Shown here piece after piece: positions 3,051-29,646 of a DNA stretch of 29,646 bases; position 1 is the stretch's first letter, and every line of letters begins with the position of its first letter. The notes beneath the pieces are model-generated. The model searched no databases. It was not told where the DNA came from and was given only the letters and a program-made list of their open reading frames with translations. This DNA comes from a virus. Location: positions 1-29,646 of the IMG/VR virus record IMGVR_UViG_3300010370_004280. One strand, written 5' to 3'. A program made the translations under genes and the position numbers.

Positions 3051-3118
3051 GCTAAGCTCTTATATAATTGGTATACTACAACTACTAAAAAAATTAACGT
3101 AAAATTAATAGAATCCAT
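3047..3118 (-). CDS. 23-residue single-helix membrane micropeptide
   Basis: A short open frame in what would otherwise be a 69-base gap. Its 23 residues start MDSINFTLIFLVVVVYQ and end with a short Lys-containing tail, so nearly the whole peptide is one hydrophobic helix. The ATG comes one base after the TAA of the GT25 gene, and its TGA overlaps the ATG of the next gene as ATGA. The frame therefore fills the gap exactly, as expected for coupled translation. There is no separate ribosome binding site. Function unknown. The exact fit makes chance less likely, but short hydrophobic frames do arise in AT-rich DNA. Confidence 0.55.
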   Translation of the reverse strand: MDSINFTLIFLVVVVYQLYKSLA

Positions 3119-3119
3119 G

Positions 3120-4126: not shown

Positions 4127-4673
4127 AATATATCTGTACGCTAAGATCACTCCAAGCATCCTCTATCATTTTTTCGATAAAAGACCATTCTCCACCAGAT
4201 TTACCAACACCAAACTTTGATCCTACTATATCGACAGTTTCCTCATTATTTTTATTATGAGACACAATATATGATGATATTGTTTCCATTGTTTTAGCTA
4301 ATGCAATATAGTCTAATGACCTAGAATATTTATGATTTTTTTTGCATATCATGTTAGCAAAAATAACTTTACCAAAATTTTTATTGTGAATATTAAATAC
4401 TTCTAAAAATTGTACTGTTCCATAGTTTTTTGAACCAGATGATCTATACATATCTAGATTTATTTTTATCTGTGGAAATATTTGTTGTATTCTAGAAGAT
4501 AATCTTGTATCGTCTTTAGGTTCTAGACTAAAACATTCTGGTATCAATAAATTTTGCGAAGATCCAGATTTTGTATTAATCTTAGCTACTATAACATCAA
4601 TAATATCTCCCTTTATATAAGCGATATTATTAGGTTTAGAATAGTGGTATTTTTTATATACTGGTATAGCCAT
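4113..4673 (-). CDS. Macrodomain protein (ADP-ribose binding, Poa1p-like)
   Basis: A 186-residue macrodomain. GDIIDVIVAKIN stands where macrodomains carry their first adenine-contacting acid. VIFANMICKK is the central strand, and SLDYIALAKTMETISSYI is the helix that normally bears the LxxAL pattern. VDIVGSKFGVGKSGGEW is the glycine-rich phosphate loop, in the GxGxGGG(D/E)W form seen in Poa1p-like ADP-ribose-1''-phosphate phosphatases. Macrodomains bind or hydrolyse ADP-ribose and its derivatives. In a phage, one could clear ADP-ribosylation or NAD-derived signals of host defence, or process tRNA-repair by-products; this is inference. It has its own promoter (4691-4718) and a good AGGAG ribosome binding site. 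Confidence 0.8.
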   Translation of the reverse strand: MAIPVYKKYHYSKPNNIAYIKGDIIDVIVAKINTKSGSSQNLLIPECFSLEPKDDTRLSSRIQQIFPQIKINLDMYRSSGSKNYGTVQFLEVFNIHNKNFGKVIFANMICKKNHKYSRSLDYIALAKTMETISSYIVSHNKNNEETVDIVGSKFGVGKSGGEWSFIEKMIEDAWSDLSVQIYYGQS

Positions 4674-4690
4674 AGTTTGCTCCTATGACT

Positions 4691-4718
4691 ATTGTAGCAC
4701 ATCCAATCAATAGGTCAA
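4691..4718 (-). promoter_or_regulatory. Promoter TTGACC-N16-TACAAT for the macrodomain gene
   Basis: The -35 box TTGACC (4718-4713) and -10 box TACAAT (4696-4691) are separated by 16 bases and followed by AGGAG and the ATG at 4673. The -35 overlaps the stop codon of the upstream sulfotransferase gene. Both boxes and the spacing are identical to the promoter at about 9200, which supports a real promoter class for the glycan region. Confidence 0.7.
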
Positions 4719-5377
4719 TGGGTGTATGCTTCATAAAATTCATCAAATGTATTGAATGGATAGTAACCAAAATTTTGTTCTATTGTCCAATCAATATTAT
4801 CATTGATATAAGAAAAGGCATCCTTATTTATTGATAGAAAATGATTTTTTTGTGGTTTAAAAATAATTTTATGTTCATAAGATGGTATTCTAAAATGTGC
4901 AGCTATATTTTGTTTAATGTAAAATGTTGTTTTGAGATTTAAAAAATTTTCAAACTGTATAATATATTTGTTATACATTGTTAATTCATTTATATATTTT
5001 AGTTTATTAGTTCTTAGTTCAAAAATATTTTTATATCTTTCTCCAGAATTCCAATTTCTATCCTCATATATTTCTGGGCCTAGAAATTCTTCGCGAGACC
5101 ACCATTGTTGAGTAACAAACCCTATAAATGAGTTGTAACTAAAAGCACAATGATGAGGTCTTTTATACATGGCAACGAGCCAGTCATAAGGATTTCTAAC
5201 TATACAAAAAAAACCAGTATTATCTAGATTATTAGATGACTCTAAATGAAAAGGAGTAAAAAAATGTTTGTGTCCGTATTGAGATGTAAATGATAACCTA
5301 AAGCTTTGATCAATAAAGTTTTGCAAAAAATTAGTACCACTATGTCTCTCACCATATATAGTATACTGTTGTATCAT
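4715..5377 (-). CDS. Sulfotransferase-family protein
   Basis: A 220-residue protein with the fold signature of PAPS-dependent sulfotransferases. The N-terminal YGERHSGTNFLQNFI is the 5'-phosphosulfate-binding loop of the P-loop-like type. FFCIVRNPYDWLVAMY is the 3'-phosphate-binding strand and Arg/Asn loop. Such enzymes transfer sulfate from PAPS to sugar hydroxyls or other acceptors. The start is two bases after the TAA of the upstream gene. Its position among glycosyltransferases points to a sulfated glycan. A second sulfotransferase-like gene lies at 24819-25406. The family call is good; the acceptor is unknown. Confidence 0.82.
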   Translation of the reverse strand: MIQQYTIYGERHSGTNFLQNFIDQSFRLSFTSQYGHKHFFTPFHLESSNNLDNTGFFCIVRNPYDWLVAMYKRPHHCAFSYNSFIGFVTQQWWSREEFLGPEIYEDRNWNSGERYKNIFELRTNKLKYINELTMYNKYIIQFENFLNLKTTFYIKQNIAAHFRIPSYEHKIIFKPQKNHFLSINKDAFSYINDNIDWTIEQNFGYYPFNTFDEFYEAYTH

Positions 5378-5379
5378 AG

Positions 5380-6045
5380 TTAATAATTAATATCAAAAAC
5401 GTTATCAAACGGATCAGAAAAAAAATGTGCTTCTAAAAATTCATCAGATAGCTGTTCTAAAATTGGATGATATATATTTTTACCACATATAGATGGCATA
5501 TCATCTCTTCCTCTTATGGGATATGGTTTTTTAAAAGTGGTTGATTCTATGCCATGTTTTCTACAAATTGTTGGTAGTCTTACTTCACATGACATACTTT
5601 TTTCGAACCATATATCATTTTCTGGATTTGTCCAGATTTCTAAAGCTAATTTTGGCATCATATAAAAACAAAATCTTGAAGCGCAAACTATAAATTGTTC
5701 GTATTCCGTATTTTTAAAATGTCTTTTAGCAGCGGGTATCCAAGGACCGCCACTATAATAAACACTATCAGCATATAAATGATTTATATCCATATCTGGT
5801 AAATTATCTAGTAATAATACATCCCATTCTAATAATGCTACATTGTTATGTTGTATTTTAGATAAATTTTCTTTAATGTTAGATCTAAGAATTAAATCAC
5901 ATTCCATCCATCCTTTATGTGGAGGATAATTATTTGCAGTATCTACTACTATGAGTTGATGTTCTGGATTAGATATTTTTATTGCATTTAAGTGGGGGCT
6001 GTACCCATCATGTCTTCTGCAATAAATTATAGTCCATTTAGACAT
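5380..6045 (-). CDS. Probable GT-A-like glycosyltransferase (tentative)
   Basis: A 221-residue protein without a secure family. An early WTIIYCRRHDG strand-loop, a QLIVVDT strand and then NNVALLEWDVLLLDNL follow the order of a nucleotide-sugar-binding GT-A fold, with EWD in the place of a DXD motif. A later PYPIRGRDDMPSI segment could lie near the acceptor site. It sits between glycosyltransferase and sulfotransferase genes, two bases upstream of the latter, which supports a role in the same glycan pathway. The ribosome binding site is weak (AGAG, some ten bases from the ATG). A structure prediction would settle the fold. Confidence 0.6.
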   Translation of the reverse strand: MSKWTIIYCRRHDGYSPHLNAIKISNPEHQLIVVDTANNYPPHKGWMECDLILRSNIKENLSKIQHNNVALLEWDVLLLDNLPDMDINHLYADSVYYSGGPWIPAAKRHFKNTEYEQFIVCASRFCFYMMPKLALEIWTNPENDIWFEKSMSCEVRLPTICRKHGIESTTFKKPYPIRGRDDMPSICGKNIYHPILEQLSDEFLEAHFFSDPFDNVFDINY

Positions 6046-6079
6046 ATTATTTTAATCTCTATTATTTTTTATAACACAA

Positions 6080-6121
6080 TTAAAAAGCATCTATATCATC
6101 AGTTTCTAATAAATTAATCAT
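6080..6121 (-). CDS. Possible 13-residue coupled micropeptide
   Basis: The frame reads MINLLETDDIDAF and then stops. Its ATG overlaps the TGA of the Cys-rich gene as ATGA, so ribosomes finishing that gene could re-initiate here. The acidic, hydrophobic-ended peptide has no recognised family. It lies in the 72-base gap before the gene starting at 6045. Low confidence because the frame is very short. Confidence 0.25.
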   Translation of the reverse strand: MINLLETDDIDAF

Positions 6122-6345
6122 GACCATTTATTTAAAGGACATTTTTGATCGGCCCAAGCTAGTTTATTCATAAATATACTCTTATTATTAACATTACACC
6201 CACATTGTAAACATTGGTTTTTGTGGAAGCTATCACAATCGATACATATTTTATATCTGGTGTGGATTAATTCTTTTGATGCTTTTGGCATTCCAGCACC
6301 TATATGAAAATATAAAGCTTTGATAAAATTAAGTATTTTTTTCAT
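6118..6345 (-). CDS. Small Cys-rich zinc-binding phage protein
   Basis: A 75-residue protein. An amphipathic N-terminus (MKKILNFIKALYFHIG) is followed by a cysteine cluster, RYKICIDCDSF, then CLQCGCNV, then a final Cys near the C-terminus in KCPLNKW. The C..C, C..CGC, C arrangement and the closing CP(L/I)NKW are typical of short zinc-binding proteins often seen in marine and jumbo phages (similar to the DUF6171 type, by eye). Function unknown. It overlaps the upstream gene by 17 bases. Confidence 0.72.
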   Translation of the reverse strand: MKKILNFIKALYFHIGAGMPKASKELIHTRYKICIDCDSFHKNQCLQCGCNVNNKSIFMNKLAWADQKCPLNKWS

Positions 6346-6562
6346 TTTTAATTTCTATTAGTAGGTTTTCCTGGTCTTGATAAAATATAAAAATTTGATC
6401 TATAATTGTATCAGCACTTAGCCATAAAATATTACCATCATGCAAATTAATACATAGTTTTTGTATTCCATTGTTTGATTTTTTATAATCACAAGTTAAT
6501 ACAAAACAGCGGCTGTTATGAGTAAATTTATCACCATTATTCAGTTCTTCTAAGTATTTCAT
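6329..6562 (-). CDS. Small unknown protein
   Basis: A 77-residue protein with no recognised family. Its beta-rich pattern (NGDKFTHNSRCFVLTCDYKK, then LCINLHDGNILWLSAD) resembles a small SH3-like or OB-like barrel, which is a guess from strand spacing. The ATG overlaps the stop of the GT32 gene upstream (ATGA) and the stop overlaps the Cys-rich gene by 17 bases, so it is a coupled member of the glycan operon. Confidence 0.6.
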   Translation of the reverse strand: MKYLEELNNGDKFTHNSRCFVLTCDYKKSNNGIQKLCINLHDGNILWLSADTIIDQIFIFYQDQENLLIEIKNEKNT

Positions 6563-7374
6563 ATAAGATTTTCTTTTCTAAAAATATAGTTAATAACAGT
6601 ATCGTTTTGATTTAAAAACCAGTCTGTATTCCAATGCCTACTAAGTTTTAAGCAATAATTATTGTTATATCCACTATCGATATAGTTTTTATATTCTCTG
6701 TTTAATTTTCCATTGAGTCTTTCTTGATATGGAACAAATGCATGAGGACCATCCCAATTTTTTTCTAGAGCTATTTTTTTAGGTATGCTATTCCATAACA
6801 TTTTTATTTCTTGAGATTCTTGTAACAATTCAGAAAATAAATTATGCAACCAAAAGTATTGATCTTTAACTCGTCTATATTTCCAATAATCGATAATTTT
6901 TTTCATCCATTTTTGAATTACTAAATTATTAAGTTCTGCGTGAATAAACCAAGAGTCTATCTTAACATAGTGAGCGTGTGCATCGTATGCAAAAAAACCA
7001 TATTCTTTATATTGTTGTAGTAGTGTATCTATACTTTTTAAACAAAGAGTTGTGCTGTCAACCCAAGTCCCTCCATATTTATATAGTAAATAAATTCTTA
7101 TAATATCACTTAGTGATACTATATCTATAAACGATAAATATTGTAAATTAAGATGTGTTAAGTCAATATATTTTTTTAATGTAGTATTATCTAATGCAAC
7201 TATTAAATAGTCCGGATTATGATTGCTCCAACTCTTTAAACATAATTGAGAAACTATAGGAGCATTATTCCATCCTGAATCCCAGTATATCCAAATAATT
7301 TTATTATTGTTTAATGTATGATTTTCAAAAACAGTATCAAACGCTTCTGATTTTAAAAATTCATCGTAAAACAT
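6559..7374 (-). CDS. Glycosyltransferase, GT32 / capsular polysaccharide synthesis type
   Basis: A 271-residue GT-A enzyme with the GT32-like (OCH1, Caps_synth) layout. IIWIYWDSGWNNAP is followed by KSWSNHNPDYLIVALD. LSDIIRIYLLYKYGGTWVDSTT carries the SD..R...L..YGG.W.D core that includes the DXD metal site (here VDST). The C-terminal part has GPHAFVPYQE. Enzymes of this group transfer mannose, galactose or other sugars in capsule or cell-wall glycans. The start overlaps the upstream gene by 14 bases and the stop overlaps the next start as ATGA. The family call is firm; the specificity is unknown. Confidence 0.87.
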   Translation of the reverse strand: MFYDEFLKSEAFDTVFENHTLNNNKIIWIYWDSGWNNAPIVSQLCLKSWSNHNPDYLIVALDNTTLKKYIDLTHLNLQYLSFIDIVSLSDIIRIYLLYKYGGTWVDSTTLCLKSIDTLLQQYKEYGFFAYDAHAHYVKIDSWFIHAELNNLVIQKWMKKIIDYWKYRRVKDQYFWLHNLFSELLQESQEIKMLWNSIPKKIALEKNWDGPHAFVPYQERLNGKLNREYKNYIDSGYNNNYCLKLSRHWNTDWFLNQNDTVINYIFRKENLI

Positions 7375-7912
7375 TATATGTTGACAATATTTTAGGTATA
7401 TATATAGGATTTTTAGCTAATTTATAACAGTCAGTAGCAAAATAACCATCTCCATTATATCTGTCTATATGAAAACGTATATTTTCGCATAATGTGTGTT
7501 TGACTATAAAATTATGACTATCAATATGATTCACTTTTATATTTGAACCATGTAATCTTTTTGATCCATCTTTATTGTTTTGGTCAAAAGATATAAAATC
7601 ATAACTTTCTAGTATGGAGGAAATATTATCCCATAAATTTTCATGTATGATAGTATCATCGTCATTGAAGTAAATATGACCACAACTAATCATATTCAAA
7701 GCAAAATTTCTTTGAGCATGACCTACTACGCTCCCCATTTGTTGATATGTATATGTTTCGCAAGTTTTTGGAATATAGTATTCCGTAGGTATATTTGGTT
7801 TATCAAAAACAACAATCCATCTATAATATTTATTAGGGATATTAATAGAAGCTTCTATGGTTTTTAGATTTTCTGGTCTACTACAAGGAGTAATTATATT
7901 AAGTAGTTTCAT
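7361..7912 (-). CDS. GT-A glycosyltransferase resembling family 43
   Basis: A 183-residue protein with IITPCSRPENLKTI at the N-terminus and a YRWIVVFDK strand. GHAQRNFALNMI is followed by HIYFNDDDTIIHENLWD. The order WIVV, then an AQRN.AL helix, then a Y F x D D D metal site matches GT43 beta-1,3-glucuronyltransferases (WIVVEDA, QRN.AL, YFADDDN), although those are longer. It is coupled to both neighbours: its start overlaps the upstream gene by 4 bases and its end overlaps GT32 by 14. The GT-A assignment is good; the family number is tentative. Confidence 0.75.
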   Translation of the reverse strand: MKLLNIITPCSRPENLKTIEASINIPNKYYRWIVVFDKPNIPTEYYIPKTCETYTYQQMGSVVGHAQRNFALNMISCGHIYFNDDDTIIHENLWDNISSILESYDFISFDQNNKDGSKRLHGSNIKVNHIDSHNFIVKHTLCENIRFHIDRYNGDGYFATDCYKLAKNPIYIPKILSTYNVLR

Positions 7913-8463
7913 GTTTTAATTAGCCAACTAGAATCAGAAAATATCATGTCTGGTTTTTTATATTCGTTTACTGCTTTCATAACAGTATCTTGATGAGCAT
8001 AATCATAATCATGACCACATAAAAAATAACTATTATTTAGTAATGGTTTATAGTTTAGAATATCTTTAGTAACCTGATCATAAGTATGTAGACCATCTAT
8101 ATAAATCATAAGTAAAGTTGGATGATTAGATAAGTGCTTGTCTATATAGGATATAGCAGAATCAGATGTGTCTCTGACGTGAAATATATTATTGTATGAT
8201 TTAGTGTTTTCTTTGAATTTTTCGTAAACATAATCTAAAGGAGCAAAATTACAAGTAGGATCTGTTGGATCATAGTTATTTAAAAAAGGATCTATAGATA
8301 TTACGCTATGAAAATATTTAGCAAAAAATGTTGTTGATTGACCAGAATAAGATCCTATCTCTATCATACTAAAATTATTTATATCGTAGTATGACTCTAT
8401 GTATTTTACTAGATCTAATAGACCATCATAATTTGGTCTCATGTTATATAAACTATTATTCAT
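7909..8463 (-). CDS. Class I SAM-dependent methyltransferase (Methyltransf_24-like)
   Basis: A 184-residue Rossmann methyltransferase. FSMIEIGSYSGQSTTFFAKYF is the SAM-binding motif I, and SVISIDPFLN is the second strand with its acidic ribose-binding residue. LLMIYIDGLHTYDQVTKDI (the IDGxHxYxxVxxD hallmark) and LLNNSYFLCGHDY complete the family pattern. This group is common in polysaccharide clusters and often methylates sugars. It overlaps the upstream methyltransferase gene by 8 bases. The fold is secure; the substrate is unknown. Confidence 0.87.
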   Translation of the reverse strand: MNNSLYNMRPNYDGLLDLVKYIESYYDINNFSMIEIGSYSGQSTTFFAKYFHSVISIDPFLNNYDPTDPTCNFAPLDYVYEKFKENTKSYNNIFHVRDTSDSAISYIDKHLSNHPTLLMIYIDGLHTYDQVTKDILNYKPLLNNSYFLCGHDYDYAHQDTVMKAVNEYKKPDMIFSDSSWLIKT

Positions 8464-9294: not shown

Positions 9295-10299
9295 TTAAAG
9301 TACTAGGGCAGCAATTAAACAACCTTTTGATACAGCATGTAAAGGATCATCTGATTGTTTTACTTGCTTAATACTCAATGGAAAACCATTCTCTATCAAT
9401 TTCTTAGCAAATACTTCTTTGAACCCCTTTGCTTGAGATGTTCCACCGGCGATGACTATTGTTAGTGGTGTTTTGAACTTTGGTAAACTTCTACTTTCTT
9501 TTAATGCAACAGTAAGTTGTTTGGTTGTATAATCTATTAGTCTCTCATAATACGAAGATACTGCTGCTAAAATTGAATTATCATTATTTTGTCCAACAGT
9601 AAAATCTCCATTTTCTTTTTCTGTTTGAACAACACCATCTGTTTCGTTGACTGCAATAGCGGACATATGATCAATCCAGTCACCGGATTTAGTTGTGGAG
9701 AATGTTAGCACTGGTTCTCCATTAAGCATTATACAAACATTAACCATACCAGCACCCCAAGATAAACCAATACCAGTATAATTATCATCCTCTAATTCTG
9801 CATAACAAAGTGCTTGTGCTTCATTAATTGATCTAGGATTATAACCACATTCTTTTAGAACTGTTTTAATAACATCTTCGTGATAACTAACATCAAAATC
9901 ATCATCCTCTTGGTCTATTGGTTGTGATGGTACACAAAAAACTATTTTTTCATTATCGCCATCTGGTTTACCAACTACTTCTTTGAGGATAAATGACAAT
10001 ACTCTTTTGGAATCTTTTTCTTTTGGAGATACTATTCCCCTATACATTGGTCTTTTTGCACTCTCATTCTTTTCTAGTGCTTTATCTATAGCATCTTGAC
10101 CAAGGACGATAAAAGAACCATCTTTATCTTTAACAAATATTTTACCAGATAATCCTTTTTCTATCATTTTATTTGCTATAACATTAGCTGGTTCTATAAT
10201 ATAAAAAGCATCTCTAAAATCTTTATATGCTATAGAATCATGAGCAACTTTTTTTGATAGAACTATAAATGATGTACCAACATCAAGACCTTTAGCCAT
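9295..10299 (-). CDS. Actin-like ATPase (ParM/MreB/FtsA superfamily)
   Basis: A 334-residue protein with the actin/Hsp70 ATPase core. GLDVGTSFIVL is phosphate 1, YTGIGLSWGAGMVNVCIML is phosphate 2, and TIVIAGGTSQAKGF is the adenosine-binding loop. A connecting INEAQALCYAEL segment lies before phosphate 2, as in ParM-like and FtsA-like proteins. Such proteins form filaments that move or position DNA, or act as membrane-linked scaffolds. The start has an AAGGA ribosome binding site and lies one base after the stop of a one-helix membrane protein, so the pair is probably co-translated. The superfamily call is firm; whether it segregates phage DNA, positions the replication centre or does something else is unknown. 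Confidence 0.85.
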   Translation of the reverse strand: MAKGLDVGTSFIVLSKKVAHDSIAYKDFRDAFYIIEPANVIANKMIEKGLSGKIFVKDKDGSFIVLGQDAIDKALEKNESAKRPMYRGIVSPKEKDSKRVLSFILKEVVGKPDGDNEKIVFCVPSQPIDQEDDDFDVSYHEDVIKTVLKECGYNPRSINEAQALCYAELEDDNYTGIGLSWGAGMVNVCIMLNGEPVLTFSTTKSGDWIDHMSAIAVNETDGVVQTEKENGDFTVGQNNDNSILAAVSSYYERLIDYTTKQLTVALKESRSLPKFKTPLTIVIAGGTSQAKGFKEVFAKKLIENGFPLSIKQVKQSDDPLHAVSKGCLIAALVL

Positions 10300-10300
10300 T

Positions 10301-10621
10301 TTATTTTCCTTTGATTAGTGAGGATAGTTTATTAACTGATGCATCAATATTATCATTAATTTCTACACTAGGAGCAATATTATCGTATTTTTTTTCCATA
10401 TCTGATATATCTATATTAGAAACAAACTTACTATCATCAATAGTTATTTTTTGCATTTTTTCTACAACTTTTTCATAATCTTTACTTTTTCTTTGACTCT
10501 TTTCAAGAAATAATTCTTTAGAAATAACCTGGGTATTGTTTTTACCTAATAAAAAGCCAATAAAAAATATAGTAAAATAAGACGAAAAGATACAAAATAA
10601 TAGAAGCAAATTTGTATTCAT
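10301..10621 (-). CDS. One-helix membrane protein paired with the actin-like ATPase
   Basis: A 106-residue protein with a hydrophobic segment at about residues 4-26 (LLLLFCIFSSYFTIFF and on), followed by a charged, helical region of about 80 residues and a basic end (KLSSLIKGK). It has no cleavable signal motif, so it is probably anchored with the C-terminus in the cytoplasm. No family recognised. One base separates its stop from the actin-like ATG, suggesting a membrane adaptor for the filament, in the manner of an FtsZ or PilM anchor; this is inference from gene order. It is transcribed divergently from the cupin gene. Confidence 0.7.
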   Translation of the reverse strand: MNTNLLLLFCIFSSYFTIFFIGFLLGKNNTQVISKELFLEKSQRKSKDYEKVVEKMQKITIDDSKFVSNIDISDMEKKYDNIAPSVEINDNIDASVNKLSSLIKGK

Positions 10622-11001: not shown

Positions 11002-12101
11002 GATATATTTTAGTAGCAAATAATAAAAAATTAAATAGCGATATGCTAAAAAAATTAGAACTTGATTCTAAAAATGATATATTAATTTTTTTTAATTATA
11101 TGTGGCCTTTCTTAACTTTCGAAAAATTACGAAATCATCCTAGAAAATATTATATTGGACGACAAAGACCAAATAAGCCAGAAACTAATCATATACCATA
11201 TGCGGGTATAGATATTGTTAAAGAACATGAAGATAAGTTTGAAAAGATTATTTTTCACAGTCATCCAGATCATATGAAAGTTTCTGATCATCAAATTATC
11301 TTAAAAAAAGCAATAGATAGTTTTAATTTTGATCCAACTAAATTAGATAAATTAGAGCCAGTATCCGATGGTATTCGTAAGACCATAGGATATCCTAAAG
11401 GCAAAAATATGAGTAGTGGTATAATAGCATATGAATACATAAAAAGAATTAAAGAACCACACGATGATATATTATTACTAGGATTTACATCAGAATTAGC
11501 TAAAAAATTTCATAACGACGATTGGGAGGCATCATATTTTAGATCTCAAATTAAAAAAAATATATGCAAAAGTATAGGATGTTATGATAATGAACAAAAA
11601 AAATATATGTATATATACGATAAATTAAAATGGAAATCATATTTATCCGGTAATCATGGTAAAAAAGCTATTGATATAATCAAATCTTTAGATGTAAAAA
11701 ATATAATAGATATTGGATGTGGACCAAATTTATTTTGTAAAGAAACTATCGGAGAATATTGTGATTGTATTGGAGTAGATTTTGCTGGAAATTTTTTTGA
11801 TCTTTATGGAGATATATGTGTAGGATTAGATACTATAAAAGATAAACAATATGATTTAGTAACAGCATTTGATTTTTTAGAACACTTACTTCCATCATGT
11901 ATTCATCAAGCACTCAGAGAAATGAAAAGAATATCTTCTGGTTTTATTTTTCAAATAGATTATCATCAGAGTATTAAGATTGTACTTGGATCCTCCCTTC
12001 ATCCTACTGTTAAACCCAAAAAATGGTGGAAAGAACAAATATCCGAATACTGTGACAACATAGAAGAACAAAGCGGATACCTATATGGTAAATGGAAATA
12101 A
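10998..12101 (+). CDS. Sialyltransferase-like / SAM methyltransferase fusion
   Basis: A 367-residue two-domain protein. The first half (about 1-185) has NPxRK-like, HSHPDHMK and NMSSGIIAYEYIKRI segments followed by DDILLLGFTS. This is the pattern of the GT29-like sialyltransferase and capsular glycosyltransferase group, where a (T/S)SG helix precedes an L.GF strand. The second half (about 200-367) is a class I methyltransferase: IIDIGCGPNLF (motif I), CIGVDFAGN, and YDLVTAFDFLEHL. A single enzyme that adds and methylates a sugar would suit this region. It overlaps the upstream gene by ATGA and the downstream one by 17 bases. The methyltransferase call is firm; the sialyltransferase-like call is moderate. 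Confidence 0.75.
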   Translation: MRYILVANNKKLNSDMLKKLELDSKNDILIFFNYMWPFLTFEKLRNHPRKYYIGRQRPNKPETNHIPYAGIDIVKEHEDKFEKIIFHSHPDHMKVSDHQIILKKAIDSFNFDPTKLDKLEPVSDGIRKTIGYPKGKNMSSGIIAYEYIKRIKEPHDDILLLGFTSELAKKFHNDDWEASYFRSQIKKNICKSIGCYDNEQKKYMYIYDKLKWKSYLSGNHGKKAIDIIKSLDVKNIIDIGCGPNLFCKETIGEYCDCIGVDFAGNFFDLYGDICVGLDTIKDKQYDLVTAFDFLEHLLPSCIHQALREMKRISSGFIFQIDYHQSIKIVLGSSLHPTVKPKKWWKEQISEYCDNIEEQSGYLYGKWK

Positions 12102-13095
12102 TAGAAGAGTTGCTGTTTTATCTCGCTATAAAGAAAATAATGAATTATGGCGTAGTATATTAAAACAATTTAAATATGAAATTATAGTATATAATAAATA
12201 TAGTGGAGAAAATTTATTAGAAAATGTTGGCAGAGAAGGTCATACATATTTAACATATATAGTACAAAATTATCATAATCTTCCATATGAAATATTATTT
12301 AGTCAATATGATCCATCCGATCATTTTAAAGAAAACACAATACATAATTCTAAAAACTTTCACAGGAATATAAAATATTTTTTAAGTGGATTTTTATATA
12401 ATTTTATAGGCATAAGACCAACAGACTATGATCTTATTGTAAGAGATAAAAATATTGATTGGATTAAACATTGTAAATATATTTTTGGGTCTTTTGAAGA
12501 ACCGCAAGTTAATAAACTTATATGTTGTGGAGCTAATTTAAATGGTGTTTTTAGAGTTAGTAGAAAAGCGATATTATCAAGACCAAAAGAATTTTATCAA
12601 AAATGTTTGAATTATCTAAGTAATGATATTGATCCTGATGAGGGATATTTTTTCGAAAGAATATGGAAATATATATTTACAAATTATGGATGTAATAATA
12701 ATCGATACCACTATTTTATAGATAATTATTTTTTATTTGGTACAGATTATGGTGTTGACTATAACTGGACCAGAAAATCAAATATTATTAGTAGTAATTT
12801 AAATGGTAATGTTATCTCTGATAGAAAATGGAAAGATAATTGTTATGGACATCTTTTTTTACATAACTCTGGTTTGATTATGTCAAATTATCTTAGTACC
12901 TCATTGTATGCCAGTCCTCAAGAAGCGTATTGGAGTATTGATGAAGATAACAGACTAAGACTATACGATCTTATGGGATCTGTTACGTCTATATTCGATC
13001 TTAACAATCATTCTTGGCCATTATATGGATATCACTATGAGGGATCTAAAAGATTAGATAATTTTCATTATTTAAAACCAAAAATGTTTATGTAA
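12085..13095 (+). CDS. DUF3431-like protein (copy 1)
   Basis: A 336-residue protein of the DUF3431 type. VAVLSRYKENNELW, then IIVYNKYSGENLLENVGREGHTYL, then IVQNYHNLPYEILFSQYDPSDHF reproduce the family order (a W near the start, YNK, N.GRE..TYL, NY..LP). The family is widespread in eukaryotes and sporadic in bacteria and is thought to be glycosyltransferase-related. It is a paralogue of the gene at 14190-15122: both share GREGHTYL, RPTDYDL, GA.LNG.FRVSR.AIL, GFFFER.WKYIFTNYG-like segments and a C-terminal beta-rich tail. Its 3' end overlaps the convergent glf gene by 8 bases. Confidence 0.78.
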   Translation: MVNGNNRRVAVLSRYKENNELWRSILKQFKYEIIVYNKYSGENLLENVGREGHTYLTYIVQNYHNLPYEILFSQYDPSDHFKENTIHNSKNFHRNIKYFLSGFLYNFIGIRPTDYDLIVRDKNIDWIKHCKYIFGSFEEPQVNKLICCGANLNGVFRVSRKAILSRPKEFYQKCLNYLSNDIDPDEGYFFERIWKYIFTNYGCNNNRYHYFIDNYFLFGTDYGVDYNWTRKSNIISSNLNGNVISDRKWKDNCYGHLFLHNSGLIMSNYLSTSLYASPQEAYWSIDEDNRLRLYDLMGSVTSIFDLNNHSWPLYGYHYEGSKRLDNFHYLKPKMFM

Positions 13096-14179
13096 ATATT
13101 TTATCTATTTGAGATAAACAAGATCCTATTACCTGATGCATATCATAGTATCTATATTCCGCCAGTCTTCCTCCAAAAATATATTTTGATTCACTCTTTG
13201 CTAATTGATCATAACGTAAAAAAATATTATTATTTTCTTCTGTATTAATAGGATAGAATGGGATTTTTGTACTATCCCAGATATCAGGATATTCCTTTGT
13301 AATTATAGTATTTTTTTGTTTACCAAATTCAAAATGTTTATGCTCGACTATTCTAGTATAGTCAATAGATATATCTGTATAATTTATTATAGCATTACCT
13401 TGAAAATCTTCTATATCTAATTTTTCATGTTCAAATCTTAAAGATCTATAATTTAATAATCCATATTTATATTCATAAAATTCATCTATCTTTCCTGTGA
13501 AAACAACATATTTAGACTGTTGATCCCAGTAATCTCTATTTTTAAAATAGTCTGTCTCCAGAGATATATCGACACCATCCAACATCTTTTCAAACATAGT
13601 TGTATACCCACCAATCGGAATACCTTGATACTTGTCATTGAAATAGTTATCATCAAAAGTTAGTCTAATTGGTAGGCGTTTAATAATATCTGATGGTAAT
13701 TCTTTAGGATCTAATTTCCATTGTTTGGTAGTATATCCTTTAATAAATATTTCATATATTTCTTGTCCAACTTGGGACAAAATCCATTCCTCTAAATTAG
13801 ATGGATTATTAATTGGTATTTTTTTTGAATCCAAAATATTTTTAGCTTGTTGTGGATTTCTAACATCCCACAATTGATAGAGTGTAAATAAATTAATAGG
13901 AAACGAAAATAATTTGTTATTATAATAAACTTTTGGTCTATTAACAAAGTGATTGAACTCCACAAACTGATTGACATACTCCCATATTTTTTTACTATTA
14001 GTATGAAATATGTGTGGCCCATAAATATGCACATTAATATCATTTATATTTTTAGTATAACAATTTCCACCAATATGATTTCTCTTATCTATAATTAGTA
14101 CTTTTTTATTTCTTTTTAAGCATTCGTGAGCGAACACAGAACCATATATACCACAACCAACAATTAAAAAATCATACAT
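13088..14179 (-). CDS. glf: UDP-galactopyranose mutase
   Basis: A full-length (363-residue) flavoenzyme that interconverts UDP-galactopyranose and UDP-galactofuranose. The N-terminus carries the FAD loop in DFLIVGCGIYGSVFAHE and the IDKRNHIGGNCYT segment, then YGPHIFHTN. Later come KGYTTKQW, the NYFNDKYQGIPIGGYT block, LNYRSLRFEHE, and the C-terminal FGGRLAEYRYYDMHQ. All match E. coli Glf in order and spacing, so it should be active. It is convergent with the first DUF3431 gene (8-base overlap) and divergent from the second, with ten bases between start codons. This suggests that galactofuranose enters the phage-encoded glycan. Confidence 0.96.
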   Translation of the reverse strand: MYDFLIVGCGIYGSVFAHECLKRNKKVLIIDKRNHIGGNCYTKNINDINVHIYGPHIFHTNSKKIWEYVNQFVEFNHFVNRPKVYYNNKLFSFPINLFTLYQLWDVRNPQQAKNILDSKKIPINNPSNLEEWILSQVGQEIYEIFIKGYTTKQWKLDPKELPSDIIKRLPIRLTFDDNYFNDKYQGIPIGGYTTMFEKMLDGVDISLETDYFKNRDYWDQQSKYVVFTGKIDEFYEYKYGLLNYRSLRFEHEKLDIEDFQGNAIINYTDISIDYTRIVEHKHFEFGKQKNTIITKEYPDIWDSTKIPFYPINTEENNNIFLRYDQLAKSESKYIFGGRLAEYRYYDMHQVIGSCLSQIDKIFT

Positions 14180-14189
14180 AAATTATCCT

Positions 14190-15122
14190 ATGACTAAAGT
14201 AGCAATATTATCTCGTTATCAAGAAAATGATAACTCATGGTATAATATATTAAAAGATCGATATGACAACATAATTGTTTTTAATAAATTTGATGGAGAA
14301 AATAAGTTACCAAATATTGGAAGAGAGGGTCATACTTATTTATATTATATAGTTAATCATTATGAAAATCTACCAGAAGAATTATTGTTTAGCCAGTATA
14401 GTCCATTAGATCATTTTAACAAATTAAATCCGTCAAATAATAGAGGTACTAATCATGTAAATGATTTTTTGAATTCTCATTTGTATGACTTTATATGTAT
14501 TAGACCCACTGACTATGATTTATTTGTTAGAAAAAGAAAAATAGAATGGCTAAATAATTTTAATGAATTATATAATACTAATAGTAATATAAATAAGATT
14601 ATATCAACTGGAGCATGTTTAAATGGTATATTTAGAGTATCTAGAGAAGCGATACTCAAACACGATATACATTTCTATATAAGAGGACTAGATATGTTAT
14701 CTAGAGGTAAAAATCCTAATGAGGGATTTTTCTTTGAGAGGGCGTGGAAATATATTTTTACTAATTATGGTAACTGTCCTGAAAAATATTCTTCTTTTAA
14801 AGATAGTATATGGTTATTTGGAAATCCTAGTTTTAGTAGTCTTGTTACTGATAGAAAAGATAGATCTTATGGACATATTAAATTATATGAAGATGGATGT
14901 ATAAGTTCTAATAATTATTGTTACTATGGACATAGTAATGAGCATCATTGGTCTATTAATGATGATGTGTTATACTTTTTTTCTTGTACTGGTTCCATAA
15001 CATCAACATATAAACTATCTAATATTAGTGAAAATACTACACAATTATTTGGCACCTATTACGATAGCAAAGGTATTCATGAGAATAAACTTTTATTGAA
15101 AAAAGCGTTGTATCAATATTAA
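14190..15122 (+). CDS. DUF3431-like protein (copy 2)
   Basis: A 310-residue paralogue of the 12085-13095 protein. Shared segments include VAILSRYQENDNSW, NIGREGHTYLYYIVNHYENLP, ICIRPTDYDLFVR, GACLNGIFRVSREAIL and GFFFERAWKYIFTNYG. The C-terminal part also ends with a Trp-Ser-Ile-(N/D)-(D/E) strand and a GS(V/I)TS segment. The arrangement looks like a tandem duplication with glf lying inverted in between. Its stop overlaps the end of the convergent protease gene by 4 bases. It has no obvious ribosome binding site. The role is probably in the same glycan pathway as glf; this is inference. Confidence 0.78.
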   Translation: MTKVAILSRYQENDNSWYNILKDRYDNIIVFNKFDGENKLPNIGREGHTYLYYIVNHYENLPEELLFSQYSPLDHFNKLNPSNNRGTNHVNDFLNSHLYDFICIRPTDYDLFVRKRKIEWLNNFNELYNTNSNINKIISTGACLNGIFRVSREAILKHDIHFYIRGLDMLSRGKNPNEGFFFERAWKYIFTNYGNCPEKYSSFKDSIWLFGNPSFSSLVTDRKDRSYGHIKLYEDGCISSNNYCYYGHSNEHHWSINDDVLYFFSCTGSITSTYKLSNISENTTQLFGTYYDSKGIHENKLLLKKALYQY

Positions 15123-15862
15123 TCCGATATATTAGATTCTATCCAGTCTGTGTGATTACTAATTCTTGTATGAAATGTTTCTGTTTCGTATTCATGTTTT
15201 TTCTTATCATTTCTACTAATAAAAGAATGAATACCAGCTAATTCATTATCTATAAATAATCCTCCACCACTATCTCCATGATATATAATATATTCTAATT
15301 GAGTAGTTCCATTTTTAAGAGATGGACTACAAACTAAAGTTCCACTATAGACTTTATCTATAATATTTGATCCTGCTCTTTTTTTACCATCTTGAATTAT
15401 GGGTCCACTAAGAAAATTTCCAGTGGTCCCAAAACCCGCCAGACTACATAACTTATTTATTTCGTCTGTTTTTTTATATAGAGATGGATACCAATCTAGT
15501 CCTATATTTGATTGCAGTTTGACTATAGCGATATCATTATGTCCTTTAATATTAGGATCAAATTCTGGATGAATAATAATTTTACCTACTTCTATTTTTC
15601 TATCATTTATTTCCACAACGAACAAATCATTGTTATCCATAAACACATGAGCAGCAGTAAGTATATATTTATCTCCTATGCCGACGCATGATCCAAAATA
15701 TTTTATTTTGTTAGTCTCTTTGTCTAAACATATTATTTTTCCAACATAAACAAAATCACTAGCATATTTTATATACTGATGATCCTTATTAGATGGATCT
15801 ATTAATCCTCCATGAGAAGAATGACCAAAGAGTAAAATCCAAATAAGCAATAAGCGTATCAT
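15119..15862 (-). CDS. Secreted trypsin-like serine protease (S1 family)
   Basis: A 247-residue S1 peptidase with an intact catalytic triad: His72 in LTAAHVF, Asp110 in GHNDIAIVKL and Ser198 in HGDSGGGLF. The N-terminus (MIRLLLIWILLFGHSSHG) is a signal peptide, so the enzyme should be exported. I choose the ATG at 15862, which has AAGGAGG five bases upstream. A GTG at 15868 overlaps that ribosome binding site. The site and the ATG are sequestered in the hairpin 15858-15913, so translation may depend on ribosomes ending the ruvB gene. Trypsin-type proteases are rare in phages. The substrate is unknown; a host envelope or surface protein is a reasonable guess. Confidence 0.9.
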   Translation of the reverse strand: MIRLLLIWILLFGHSSHGGLIDPSNKDHQYIKYASDFVYVGKIICLDKETNKIKYFGSCVGIGDKYILTAAHVFMDNNDLFVVEINDRKIEVGKIIIHPEFDPNIKGHNDIAIVKLQSNIGLDWYPSLYKKTDEINKLCSLAGFGTTGNFLSGPIIQDGKKRAGSNIIDKVYSGTLVCSPSLKNGTTQLEYIIYHGDSGGGLFIDNELAGIHSFISRNDKKKHEYETETFHTRISNHTDWIESNISD

Positions 15863-15913
15863 AAACACCTCCTTTTGTGCATAAAATATTACACACTAAG
15901 GAGGATTTATGAT
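15858..15913 (-). promoter_or_regulatory. Hairpin hiding the protease ribosome binding site and start
   Basis: In the minus-strand RNA, AUCAUAAAUCCUCCUU (15913-15898) pairs with AAGGAGGUGUUUAUGAU (15874-15858). That is about 16 base pairs with one bulged base, plus a short UGUG/CACA extension toward the loop. The 3' arm contains the AAGGAGG ribosome binding site and the AUG of the protease gene. The 5' arm begins at the last base of the ruvB stop codon. A ribosome terminating on ruvB would melt the stem, so this looks like translational coupling, or possibly a temperature-sensitive switch. Confidence 0.72.
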
Positions 15914-16806
15914 CAAATTTTGCCTATGATCCTACCCTTTTGAGTTCTAACAGCATATCCCATTCGTATAAGATATGGTTCGATACTATTTTCAATAGTT
16001 TCTATTGCTATGCCTGTCAGAGAAGAGATACTCTTTAGTCCAACAGGATTACCATGTTGTTTTTGTAGCATATCTAGATACATTCTATCATAGATATCTA
16101 ATCCCATATTATCGATGCCTTGAATTTTGAAGATTTCATCAACAGATAATTCTTGATCTGGATGACAGATCTTATAATTTTTATACCATTGTAGTCTACC
16201 ATTCAAAATACGAGGAGTACCCTTGCTACGTTTAGCAATTTCCACAAGATCATTATCTGATATAGTAATATTTAGCTTATCAGCATTCGATCTTGCTAGT
16301 TTAGCTAAATCATTAGCAGAATAAAAACTAAGGTGTTCTTTAATAATGAATCGATCATAAAATGGCTGACTTAAACTACCACCACTAGTTGTTGCACCAA
16401 TCATGGTAAATGCTGGAAGATCAATAGTTTCTGGTTTATTTTCGATAGTTACAGAAAGAGCAAAATCTTCCATAACAGGATATAAAAATTCTTCTACTAA
16501 CTTTGGTAGTCTATGGATTTCATCAATAAATAATACTGATCTTGGTGCCATACCCATAAGATAGGGCATAATGCTTTTTACGCTACGAATATTGGCCGCA
16601 TTGGTGGTATATAGATTAACATTGAGTTCGTTCGCTATAGCACTCGCTATGGTGGTCTTACCAAGGCCGGGAGGGCCGTCTATTAAAGTGTGTGACATCA
16701 CGGTGTTTGAGTTTAAACAGCCGGTCACAGACACCTTGAGTCTTTGAATAACATCATTTTGACCAATAATCTCATCAAATCTAGTTGGTCGAATTCCTTT
16801 AGACAT
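15913..16806 (-). CDS. ruvB: RuvB-type Holliday junction branch-migration ATPase
   Basis: A 297-residue AAA+ ATPase, slightly shorter than cellular RuvB (about 335). It has RPTRFDEIIGQ at the N-terminus, Walker A GPPGLGKT (44-51) and Walker B VLFIDEIH (91-98). The VEEFLYPVMEDF block, sensor 1 in IGATT, the arginine-finger DRF (151-153) and sensor 2 in GTPRI (Arg199) follow. A C-terminal winged helix ends EPYLIRMGYAVRTQKGR. The RuvA-contacting beta-hairpin after MEDF is shortened by several residues. RuvB pumps DNA through a RuvA-bound junction; no full RuvA or RuvC is visible here. The gene overlaps the upstream RuvA-III-like gene by 8 bases, with a GGAG ribosome binding site. It resembles RuvB far more closely than T4-type clamp loader gp44. 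Confidence 0.93.
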   Translation of the reverse strand: MSKGIRPTRFDEIIGQNDVIQRLKVSVTGCLNSNTVMSHTLIDGPPGLGKTTIASAIANELNVNLYTTNAANIRSVKSIMPYLMGMAPRSVLFIDEIHRLPKLVEEFLYPVMEDFALSVTIENKPETIDLPAFTMIGATTSGGSLSQPFYDRFIIKEHLSFYSANDLAKLARSNADKLNITISDNDLVEIAKRSKGTPRILNGRLQWYKNYKICHPDQELSVDEIFKIQGIDNMGLDIYDRMYLDMLQKQHGNPVGLKSISSLTGIAIETIENSIEPYLIRMGYAVRTQKGRIIGKI

Positions 16807-17197
16807 TTTTTATCTCCAATGATTGTAAAGCAAGTTTAACTAGTTCTAGTGTGTTTGTTATATTTTGATTATTTTTGATGATATCTAACAATAATGAATC
16901 AGATTCTAGTCTGGTAAAACCATATTGTTGTAATATACAACTAGCCTCGTTTAATAGACTCTTATTTAGTTGCGGTTCTGGTGCAGACTGAGGTTGGGAT
17001 ATCTGCTGTGTTTTTTCGTATGCAATATCTATTTTTGATATCTGTTTTGGTTTGAATACTGTTCCACAAGTACAAACTATTTTGAAATTTTTTGTTTGAG
17101 ATTCTTGTAGTGTTAACCAGTGAGTATAATAACAGTTATTGTTTGGACAAGAATATTCTAGTTGACAATTAATATTAATCGGTTTCTGTATTTTCAT
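16799..17197 (-). CDS. Zinc-ribbon protein with RuvA domain III-like C-terminus
   Basis: A 132-residue protein in three parts. Residues 10-50 form a zinc ribbon (Cys17 and Cys22 in SCPNNNC, Cys42 and Cys44 in VCTCG). Residues 60-80 are a Gln/Pro/Ser linker. Residues 80-128 resemble RuvA domain III: LLNEASCILQQYGFTRLES, then an acidic and hydrophobic helix, then ELVKLALQSL, the same helix-turn spacing as EAV..LVALGYKPQEA and ELIREALRAL in RuvA. Domain III is the part of RuvA that binds RuvB. The tetramerising DNA-binding domains I and II of RuvA are absent. The gene directly precedes and overlaps ruvB, so it is likely a RuvB partner. The motif call is by eye and needs profile support. Confidence 0.7.
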   Translation of the reverse strand: MKIQKPININCQLEYSCPNNNCYYTHWLTLQESQTKNFKIVCTCGTVFKPKQISKIDIAYEKTQQISQPQSAPEPQLNKSLLNEASCILQQYGFTRLESDSLLLDIIKNNQNITNTLELVKLALQSLEIKNV

Positions 17198-17591
17198 CGT
17201 CTTTTACCCAAAACACAAAATCATTTATATCGCTATCGTAGGCAGACTCTATCATACCCTTGTTAGCCAAACTTGTCAATATGTTACTAACCAACCTAGC
17301 ATTTAATGCTTCTATGATTTCTGTAAATATTTTTTCATCAATCAAATATCTTGATCTATTTTCATATTTGTGATGCTGCTCTTTTGCCATACTTTTCACA
17401 ATAACTAAAGCCTCATCGTGAGATAATATCTTATTGAGTTCTTTTTCTTCTTCTGGATTGATTTTTGTAACTAGTTCTGTAAATTCATCTGGATCTTCTA
17501 CAGATCCTTTACCAAATCCATTATAAACTAATCTTCTGGTTGAATCGGTAAATTGATCTAGATCATCGATAATATAATTTGGTTTAGACAT
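17175..17591 (-). CDS. Unknown protein with possible winged-helix end
   Basis: A 138-residue acidic protein with no recognised family. The middle is helical and charged (ILSHDEALVIVKSMAKEQ). The C-terminus has helix-helix-strand character (IIEALNARLVSNILTSLANKGMIES and then DFVFWV), compatible with a small winged-helix fold. A clear AAGGA ribosome binding site lies seven bases before the ATG. It overlaps the zinc-ribbon gene by 23 bases and belongs to the operon with ruvB and rIIAB. A recombination or replication role is suggested only by its neighbours. Confidence 0.72.
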   Translation of the reverse strand: MSKPNYIIDDLDQFTDSTRRLVYNGFGKGSVEDPDEFTELVTKINPEEEKELNKILSHDEALVIVKSMAKEQHHKYENRSRYLIDEKIFTEIIEALNARLVSNILTSLANKGMIESAYDSDINDFVFWVKDDENTETD

Positions 17592-17601
17592 AAGTGTTTC
17601 C

Positions 17602-17997
17602 TTAATTTAAGATATCAAACATTCCCTTATAATAATGTGGTTGTTGTAAAAAATGAACCGCATGACTTTTGATATGGTTTACATATTCAGTAGATAGCGG
17701 ATCATTTACAAAATATTTTTTCTTCCATATTGGTTGATTCTGATAGTTAACCCCCAAATACTGGACAGGGTTTTTGTCCTTACCAGTATTGGAGGTCAAA
17801 CTATTCACAGGAAACGACTTTGGAGGAAAACCATAAACATACCATGTATTAGTAAAATTATTACTCATATTGTTCAGAGTATCGTATAATGCTTTGCCCC
17901 AAGCATCCCAAGCATCAGGATCAAATTTAAAATAGTTCTTATATTTATCCTGACTATTGTTATCATCATCATCGTATTCTTCATCTTCTTGGTGCAT
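17602..17997 (-). CDS. Unknown protein with acidic N-terminus
   Basis: A 131-residue protein that begins with a very acidic stretch (MHQEDEEYDDDDNNSQD) and continues with an aromatic-rich body (YFKFDPDAWDAWGKALYDTL, WYVYGFPPKSFP). No family recognised. Its upstream region carries only a weak AAGAG ribosome binding site, and the tRNA-like minihelix lies between it and rIIB. It sits ten bases before the next gene of the operon. The acidic tract resembles the acidic tails of rIIB and of the gene at 21732-22010. Confidence 0.68.
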   Translation of the reverse strand: MHQEDEEYDDDDNNSQDKYKNYFKFDPDAWDAWGKALYDTLNNMSNNFTNTWYVYGFPPKSFPVNSLTSNTGKDKNPVQYLGVNYQNQPIWKKKYFVNDPLSTEYVNHIKSHAVHFLQQPHYYKGMFDILN

Positions 17998-24818: not shown

Positions 24819-25406
24819 TCAGATAGATTTGTTGTCATGAGGGTATTCTGTATTAAAAATTGGTATTATCTGTTGAATTATTTGTACTATTTTTGTAGTA
24901 TCAGATAAATCTAATCTAGTAATTTTAACATTATATTTATTTTGTAGTATATCTAATTGCATATAAAATTTATGATAAAAATCAATCAATTTATTTTGAT
25001 TGAGTCTTATATCTTTAACAATATCTCCATATATATATGTATGATATAAAATATTATTTGGACTTTTCATAAGCCATTTTTGTATTTTTGTAAAACTAAT
25101 AATCCAATCTTTGTGATCTCTAATTGTGGCTACAAAATATATGTTTTTATTTTGATAATACTTAGAAATAATTTTTTCTGATAAAGAATACCATGGACAG
25201 TCATTAAAACAAGAATATGATTCAATATAGTTATCTATTAAAGATGGTTTATCTTCTATGTAGTTAGAATATTCTATAGGAAATATTCTATCTATTTCAT
25301 CTTTATTCGAATGTAATGATCTAATATTGTTTGATAGAATAAAATTATGAAAGGATGTGGTCCCTGTTCTTGGAAGTCCAAAATTAAATATTTTTAGGTT
25401 TGACAT
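24819..25406 (-). CDS. Sulfotransferase-family protein (second)
   Basis: A 195-residue protein. FNFGLPRTGTTSFHNFIL is the 5'-phosphosulfate loop (GxPRTGTTS) and YFVATIRDHKDWIISF the 3'-phosphate-binding segment (R.....W..S). This is the classic layout of small PAPS-dependent sulfotransferases. It overlaps the upstream glycosyltransferase gene by 23 bases, so a sugar is transferred and perhaps sulfated by adjacent products. It differs from the 4715-5377 protein in its first loop (GLPRTGTTS against GERHSGTNF), so the two are not recent duplicates. The acceptor is unknown. Confidence 0.82.
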   Translation of the reverse strand: MSNLKIFNFGLPRTGTTSFHNFILSNNIRSLHSNKDEIDRIFPIEYSNYIEDKPSLIDNYIESYSCFNDCPWYSLSEKIISKYYQNKNIYFVATIRDHKDWIISFTKIQKWLMKSPNNILYHTYIYGDIVKDIRLNQNKLIDFYHKFYMQLDILQNKYNVKITRLDLSDTTKIVQIIQQIIPIFNTEYPHDNKSI

Positions 25407-26136
25407 TATATCTTTGATTCATAGCAGATTTAATCTGATCAAACTGTTTTAATTTATCTTCTATACTTAGTACACATGTAGCATGATGCAATATCATATT
25501 TTTCGGTAATGGTGTGTTATTATCAAATATACAATTTATTTGACTCATACAAAAAAAATCTTCACTCAAAACTGAAACAGATGGGAGTGATTCTGTTTGC
25601 TTATGAAATATTTCAATATCTGTTTTATAATTATTTTGTAGAAATAAATTTGTTGTTGGTTGTTCCCATAGGTAATCTTTAAAAATTTGATCATAAATAG
25701 AATCCCAAAAATATTTTACAGATTTAGTATTCTTTATAATCATAAATCCTATATTAACCTGTGACATTCTATATTTTTTATCCAAAATATCTATTTCTTT
25801 TTGAAAGAATATATCTGTATCATTCATTGATTTTATTAATTCTTTTATATATGGAACAATAGGTTGATAGAAAATAATATCTATATCTGATAATATAAAA
25901 TATTCATTAGTCTGAGTTTTAGTGAGAGCATAATCAATGAGATTTTTTCTTGCTATACAACCATAATGACCGCCTCCTGGTTGTATATCATTTCCTTGTA
26001 TTTTTTGTTCTTTTTCTATATCATAGATATAATCAAAGTTTATAGGAAAATGATCTAGACAAGTATCATGTATTGATTCTAGATAATAATCTAGTAATAT
26101 TTTGAAGTTATTAGTATAGGTATAAAAAATTTTCAT
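25384..26136 (-). CDS. Glycosyltransferase-like (nucleotide-diphospho-sugar transferase fold)
   Basis: A 250-residue GT-A-like protein. IFYTYTNNFKILLDYYLESI leads in. GGGHYGCIARKNLIDYAL is followed by EYFILSDIDIIFYQPI, whose DID is the DXD metal site after a hydrophobic strand. A middle MSQVNIGFMIIKNT and a C-terminal ILHHATCVLS with His complete a pattern like GT77-type and related transferases. It overlaps the DNA glycosylase gene upstream as ATGA and the sulfotransferase gene downstream by 23 bases. The fold is likely; family and sugar are unknown. Confidence 0.75.
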   Translation of the reverse strand: MKIFYTYTNNFKILLDYYLESIHDTCLDHFPINFDYIYDIEKEQKIQGNDIQPGGGHYGCIARKNLIDYALTKTQTNEYFILSDIDIIFYQPIVPYIKELIKSMNDTDIFFQKEIDILDKKYRMSQVNIGFMIIKNTKSVKYFWDSIYDQIFKDYLWEQPTTNLFLQNNYKTDIEIFHKQTESLPSVSVLSEDFFCMSQINCIFDNNTPLPKNMILHHATCVLSIEDKLKQFDQIKSAMNQRYNVKPKNI

Positions 26137-28631: not shown

Positions 28632-29646
28632 TCATATTAATTCTTTCATCGGAGAATGTTCTGTTAAATATTGTGGTCTACCTGTTGTATCAATCAATGT
28701 TGTTTGACTAACATCTACTCCAAGGCTATGATACAGCGTAGAAAATACTTCTTGAACATCTACTGGACGATCTAATGCGTGTTCTCCAAGTTTATTTGTT
28801 GAACCAATTACTTGACCGTGCCTCATTCCTCCGCCAAATAATAATGCACTATTAACTTGAGGCCAATGATCTCTGCCACTGTCTTTATTTATTTTAGGAG
28901 TTCTTCCAAATTCTCCCCAAACAATAACTGTGGTAGTATCAAGCATATCAGATCTTTGTAAGTCATCTATTAAAGCAGATAAGCACTGATCTAATTTGGA
29001 TCCGTGATCTTTTACCAAACCAAAATTATCACCATGGCTATCCCATCTGCCATAACTTAATGATACTACTCTCACTCCACATTCTATTAATCTCTTTGCT
29101 ATTAATAAATGAGTATTAACAGTTGGAGCACCATCATATTGAAATCTATATGGCTTACCATCTCCATACATTGATAGAATATCTTGATCTACTTTAGATA
29201 AATCTAAAGCATTTAGCAGTTTACTATCTCTCAGAATATCAAATGCTTTTTGAGTAAATATATCTGCACTTTGTATATTTTGTTTAATATCTAGTGTTCT
29301 ATTAAGATTATCTAACTGAGATAAAAGTTGTTGTCTATTATTTAGTCTAGTTATATCTCCATGTAATATCATGTCGCTTAAACCATCTCCATGAGGTTTA
29401 AATGGATTCATTGATGATCCTAAAAATCCACCTTCACCAGAATCGCTCCAAGGAACGTGCTTTGTAGTTTCTGCTAGTCCAACGAAAGGAGGAACAGAAG
29501 TATCTACTGGGCCATATAACTTAGATATTGCTGATCCTATAGATGGTCGTCCACCAATACTTTTTAAACTATCCGGCTTCCATCCTGTCATACATTGATA
29601 AGCAGCGTGATCTCCATGACTGCCAGTAATAGAACGAATAATAGTA
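28632..29646 (-). CDS. DUF1501 protein (N-terminus cut by window edge)
   Basis: About 338 residues are visible, and the frame is open to the window edge. RSITGSHGDHAAYQCMTGW matches the RSM...H....TG segment of DUF1501 proteins. The C-terminal half has VVSLSYGRWDSHGDN, VIVWGEFGRTPKIN followed by GRDHWPQV, LLFGGGMRHGQVIGSTN and RPVDVQEVFSTLYHSLGVD, all in family order. DUF1501 proteins share the alkaline-phosphatase or sulfatase fold, are usually exported, and are very numerous in Planctomycetes. A copy in a phage genome is unusual. The first in-frame Met visible (29591) is internal, so the true start is beyond 29646. The family is firm; the function is unknown even in bacteria. Confidence 0.93.
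   Translation of the reverse strand, partial: TIIRSITGSHGDHAAYQCMTGWKPDSLKSIGGRPSIGSAISKLYGPVDTSVPPFVGLAETTKHVPWSDSGEGGFLGSSMNPFKPHGDGLSDMILHGDITRLNNRQQLLSQLDNLNRTLDIKQNIQSADIFTQKAFDILRDSKLLNALDLSKVDQDILSMYGDGKPYRFQYDGAPTVNTHLLIAKRLIECGVRVVSLSYGRWDSHGDNFGLVKDHGSKLDQCLSALIDDLQRSDMLDTTTVIVWGEFGRTPKINKDSGRDHWPQVNSALLFGGGMRHGQVIGSTNKLGEHALDRPVDVQEVFSTLYHSLGVDVSQTTLIDTTGRPQYLTEHSPMKELI

Follow-up and report, generated by a model that had tools for sequence, protein, structure and literature searches.

A new variant form of RuvAB in uncultured viruses: a phage RuvB paired with a RuvA domain III-like adaptor

The viral contig IMGVR_UViG_3300010370_004280 (positions 1 to 29,646; the whole of this stretch is referred to below as the window) encodes on its minus strand a RuvB and, directly upstream of it, a small protein called here the adaptor, and the two make up a new variant form of RuvAB, in which a true RuvB is accompanied by a partner with a RuvA domain III-like tail and a zinc-ribbon-like head. 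The setting is that of a phage, since rIIA and rIIB lie a few genes upstream of the pair in this 29.6-kb viral contig. RuvB (297 amino acids) occupies 15913..16806 and the adaptor gene (132 amino acids) 16799..17197, both on the minus strand, and the 8-base overlap of the adaptor end with the RuvB start (16799..16806) can be read directly from the sequence; coordinates and overlap are as stated in the original prediction, which was made from the letters of the window. This overlap suggests that the two genes may be translationally coupled, and 8 bases is also the commonest adaptor/RuvB overlap among 171 partly redundant loci. Another contig, 35 kb long (L002/L033), encodes both proteins with 100% identity.

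The RuvB motor and its partner

The RuvB of the window contains a P-loop domain, an AAA lid and a winged helix, which Pfam recognizes as RuvB_N (6.5e-46), AAA_lid_4 (5.3e-9) and RuvB_C (2.7e-18), respectively. In an alignment with E. coli RuvB, the Walker A (GPPGLGKTT), Walker B (FIDEIH), sensor 1 (GATT), Arg finger (DRF) and sensor 2 (GTPRI) motifs are kept, together with the trans-acting Glu-Asp and RT-x-x-GR; with all three domains found and the catalytic motifs intact, the earlier identification as RuvB holds, and the protein is predicted from its sequence to be an intact double-stranded-DNA translocase. At least 374 contig stretches in IMG/VR carry relatives of this RuvB, while the matches in INPHARED phage records all have less than 60% identity, many of them being matches of 38–40% to faecal or unannotated contigs; the matches at 38–40% were rejected as family members because they resemble bacterial RuvB instead. 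For the RuvB/adaptor family, uncultured viruses appear to be the only known source. Pseudomonas phage PaBG has a “RuvB helicase-like protein” (PMC7412058), which was also rejected: it is listed in that paper within the structural proteome at 221 kDa, and its size rules out membership.

The tail of the adaptor (residues 77–131; 16805..16969, minus strand) is a homologue of RuvA domain III. AlphaFold2 folds it into three helices (79–91, 96–109 and 116–131), and when the profile of 46 non-redundant adaptors was searched against all PDB sequences with hmmsearch, the top match was 1ixs_A (E = 6.3e-4), followed by 1ixr_A (5.9e-3), both of which are RuvA; seven of the top nine matches are RuvA sequences, all aligned at domain III. 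A Foldseek search of 350,542 chains, the kind of structural check that the original prediction had called for, placed RuvA at ranks 1–7, including 1ixs_A, the crystal structure of RuvA domain III with RuvB (probability 0.99, target TM, i.e., template modelling, score 0.76), and the first UBA domain appeared only at rank 34. Comparison of the tail alignment with nine RuvA domain III sequences by hhalign gave a probability of 96.2% and a score of 43.2 over 47 columns, against a best score of 12.8 and at most 2% in 100 column shuffles. In a search of the PDB with the tail alone, the UBA chain 2g3q_A was matched at E = 0.025 with RuvA ranked above it; a closer relation of the tail to UBA was rejected because RuvA outranks UBA both here and in Foldseek. 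What had been an assignment by eye thus has the support of several separate tests.

The head of the adaptor (residues 1–60; 17018..17197, minus strand) is zinc-ribbon-like. A search of viral contigs with a profile of 13 adaptors, made independently of RuvB, yielded 154 relatives, of which the best 80 were examined, and the 46 non-redundant members used above for the profile also served for the analysis of conservation. Across these 46 sequences C17, C22, C42, C44, H26, W27, F48, K51, G93 and E98 show little or no variation, and Y60 is also conserved in the head; the first Cys pair is C-x4-C in 34 of the 46 and C-x2-C in 10, and the second is C-x-C in nearly all. The AlphaFold2 model of the adaptor has a mean predicted local distance difference test (pLDDT) score of 90, rising to about 97 for residues 11–50, and contains strands at 12–16 and 25–29 and short strands near 40–48, so that the two Cys pairs lie on beta hairpins as in a zinc ribbon. 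The head is basic, with a mean net charge of +6.9 across the family, and presumably binds zinc. Between head and tail, residues 61–76 (16970..17017, minus strand) form a low-confidence stretch of the model taken as a flexible linker, which, counted as residues 61–74 of the window protein, is 12–37 residues long across the family. The zinc ribbon on a flexible linker that had been proposed agrees with the four near-invariant cysteines, the modelled strands and the variable linker, provided that the ribbon is called zinc-ribbon-like. Searches with the adaptor in PHROGs, Pfam and BFVD structures led to no named family; the adaptor had no match among 50,697 INPHARED phage records, and the 46-row profile had none in 84,980 cellular genomes. 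Within the tail by itself, no segment is conserved strongly enough to be used for scanning a sequence collection.

The 132 amino acids of the adaptor are fully taken up by head, linker and tail. RuvA domain I (RuvA_N, an oligonucleotide/oligosaccharide-binding (OB) fold) was absent from the protein, and no helix-hairpin-helix match, which would mark domain II and the tetramer core, was detected in it. The adaptor itself is therefore not a RuvA, because the two defining domains were looked for and not found, and the earlier statement that the DNA-binding and tetramerising domains are missing is correct. A complete ruvA elsewhere in the genome would have spoken against the proposal, and RuvA_N was found in 0 of 22 related contigs, which are fragments of up to 223 kb, while 10 of 14 control genomes were positive in the same search.

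Conservation of the pair and relation to known systems

RuvB lies directly downstream of the adaptor and on the same strand in 79 of the 80 best adaptor loci, and the 80th is cut by the contig end. Since these loci were found independently of RuvB, chance is excluded, and the two-gene arrangement that was to be sought in other phages proves to be a conserved pair in a family of large uncultured phages. Viewed from the side of RuvB, the adaptor is directly upstream in 51 of 60 RuvB clusters (93% identity).

The presensor-1 beta-hairpin region of RuvB (residues 115–132; 16411..16464, minus strand), delimited by alignment with E. coli RuvB, contains a conserved Ile. The distance from the trans-acting Asp to the Arg finger is 38 residues in the window RuvB, compared with 42 by count in the aligned E. 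coli sequence, and ranges from 38 to 44 across the family. The hairpin is indeed shortened, as had been noted; the idea that this points to a different partner was rejected because the length does not track the adaptor. Among 73 adaptor-carrying RuvBs the stretch is 38 residues in 56 and 43–44 in 17, whereas all 10 adaptor-less RuvBs have 38 residues, so that the longer forms (17 of 83) all carry the adaptor.

Like bacterial RuvAB, the phage pair has the RuvB domain set and catalytic motifs, and the gene immediately before ruvB codes for a domain III homologue; in Latilactobacillus curvatus, ruvA directly precedes ruvB, the same order as in the phage pair. Unlike in bacterial RuvAB, RuvA domains I and II are missing from the phage protein, with the zinc-ribbon-like head instead. 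In contrast to bacterial RuvABC, RuvC was not detected above the cut-off in the contigs of the group, and endonuclease VII was found in most (12 of 17). A RecA/UvsX-type recombinase is present in 15 of 16 large contigs of the group. T4, with UvsX, UvsW and endonuclease VII, resembles this group in the RecA-type recombinase and endonuclease VII of the related contigs and in the rIIA/rIIB of the window, but differs in that no UvsW-type superfamily 2 (SF2) helicase was found in the group contigs, which have the RuvB pair instead; the SF2 domain ResIII and Helicase_C each gave 0 of 16 contigs of up to 238 kb, while T4 as a positive control matched Helicase_C at uvsW. A further difference from T4 is that its capsid family gp23 gave no match. 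Because recombinase and endonuclease VII are present and no UvsW-type SF2 helicase was found, RuvB probably does the work of UvsW in these phages as the branch-migration motor, and the pair is a possible answer to how branches are migrated in large phages without UvsW. The RuvC resolvases of jumbo phages (PMC7824862) likewise represent Holliday-junction processing by large phages, but the present group has RuvB, and no RuvC was detected in it; a survey of 224 jumbo phages is reported to have seen no coupling of RuvB with phage RuvC. Searches of an open-access literature collection brought up no case of a phage RuvB accompanied by a RuvA-like protein.

Proposed mechanism and alternative explanations

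The targeting of RuvB is assumed to rely on the junction-bound tetramer of RuvA. It has been reported that bacterial RuvA domain III docks on helix alpha3 and the presensor-1 hairpin of RuvB, for which it is a nucleotide-exchange factor and ATPase activator (PMC9477746, PMC10272136). The adaptor probably works like this domain. It would supply only domain III of RuvA, i.e., the RuvB-docking activator, and its basic zinc-ribbon-like head on a flexible tether would take the place of the tetrameric junction-gripping core; in this way, the adaptor would most likely bring the RuvB ring to recombination intermediates or regressed forks and activate it there, with the ribbon making contact with DNA or with a phage replication or recombination protein. 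Homology and gene pairing suggest that the adaptor may bind RuvB, and DNA or an acidic phage protein is a plausible target of the head because the head is basic; activation of RuvB, the choice of target and the biological role are likewise put forward here as proposals. On balance we favour the reading that the pair is a rebuilt RuvAB motor, with an intact RuvB and domain III on a new recognition head. The fuller proposal is that RuvB is loaded independently of RuvA: domain III became detached from the RuvA core, and the head guides the RuvB ring to a new target, whether forks, D-loops or a phage recombination protein, in place of UvsW when replication depends on recombination. This proposal is tentative, with chances slightly short of even. 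With the pair, one can test directly if domain III is sufficient by itself to activate RuvB and if an exchange of the recognition head sends RuvB to another target.

Several points weigh against the rebuilt motor. The similarity scores of the tail are moderate: the Foldseek E-values (0.3, above 0.1) are high because the domain is short, and therefore it is the ranking that serves as the evidence, while Pfam RuvA_C matches some adaptors at best with 21 bits, under its 24-bit cut-off. A single-chain model of an adaptor-RuvB read-through fusion, a modelling device in which one natural stop codon is read through (L095) and whose alignment contains bridging rows, reached a predicted TM score (pTM) of 0.70, gives no interface readout and does not show docking. 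The contigs are fragments, and each absence is therefore provisional. In addition, nine RuvB clusters, dispersed over the tree of RuvB, lack the adaptor, which was not found elsewhere in those adaptor-less contigs that were searched; the adaptor is thus dispensable, because some phages of the group keep RuvB without it, and RuvB can do without it, perhaps by using host RuvA.

Adaptor presence changes eight times on the RuvB tree, and seven of these changes are forced by well-supported branches. In three adaptor-less loci (L032, L192 and L202) the gene before RuvB has kept the ending ETD, and in adaptor carriers the stretch coding for ETD opens the adaptor in the other reading frame, so the ETD ending of the adaptor-less loci looks like a scar. 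Repeated loss of the adaptor is likely, and its direction is one that we infer. As a separate observation, RuvB is split over three frames in one adaptor-less 72-kb contig (L032:4001-4606), which points to gene decay or to an error in the assembly.

The persistence of RuvB without the adaptor in several lineages leads to the strongest alternative, in which phage RuvB normally uses host RuvA, and the adaptor is no loader but acts as an accessory competitor, either driving host RuvA off phage RuvB or tuning the ATPase of the latter. It would be in line with the 38-residue hairpin stretch kept by the adaptor-less RuvBs, as expected if they still dock a domain III, for example that of the host, and with the cross-species RuvA-RuvB complementation that has been reported (PMC9477746); however, the strict adjacency and overlap of the pair speak against it, and a pure competitor has no need of a conserved basic zinc-ribbon-like head, so we regard this explanation as unlikely. 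A host-takeover inhibitor is more improbable again: here, domain III of the adaptor would cap host RuvB and stop host RuvABC from reversing or cutting phage forks, which agrees with the ability of domain III of one species to engage the RuvB of another (PMC9477746) and with the lack of the adaptor in some lineages, but the adaptor always stands beside phage RuvB, the sole exception being at a contig end. Least probable of all is that the tail represents a generic three-helix domain of the UBA-like type, without relation to the function of RuvA, and that the zinc ribbon marks a regulator of another process, linked to RuvB by no more than co-transcription, since unbiased searches by sequence and by structure put RuvA ahead of every other fold and the neighbouring gene encodes the known partner of RuvA domain III, even though UBA-like folds are common and 2g3q_A was matched by the tail.

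Neighbouring genes of the pair and the rest of the window

Almost all related contigs have two further conserved genes upstream of the pair, which lie on the minus strand in the window. The first (17175..17591, 138 amino acids), whose last codons overlap the adaptor start, occurs with or without the adaptor, and its product matched nothing in the PDB with an E-value below 0.037 and was not clearly identified by PHROGs. The second, in the same gene run (17602..17997, 131 amino acids), encodes a product with an acidic N-terminus and a conserved C-terminal ending of the FDILN type, for which no PDB match below E = 0.49 was found; its C-terminal ILN is invariant (GMFDILN here) and slightly resembles a clamp-binding tail. 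Directly downstream of RuvB, a trypsin-like protease with a signal-like N-terminus is encoded at 15119-15868 (minus strand), and this slot is taken elsewhere by a thioredoxin-like gene (L006, L008, L029) or others. An actin-like protein at 9295-10299 (minus strand; Pfam Volactin, an archaeal actin family, 2.5e-64) is preceded by the gene of a small membrane-anchored protein at 10301-10621 (minus strand), and a similar small membrane protein is encoded directly downstream of RuvB in two other contigs (L007, L011). The best 80 cellular-genome relatives of the DUF1501 product (28632-29591, minus strand; 5.3e-64) are nearly all from Planctomycetota, with identity up to 63%, which suggests a planctomycete host or a gene acquired from one. 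Many glycosyltransferase-like and other sugar-modifying genes are present at 1444-8463, 12085-15122 and 24819-26136, including those recognized by Pfam as UDP-galactopyranose mutase (13088-14179) and sulfotransferase (24819-25406), and these sugar-enzyme genes suggest surface-sugar modification.
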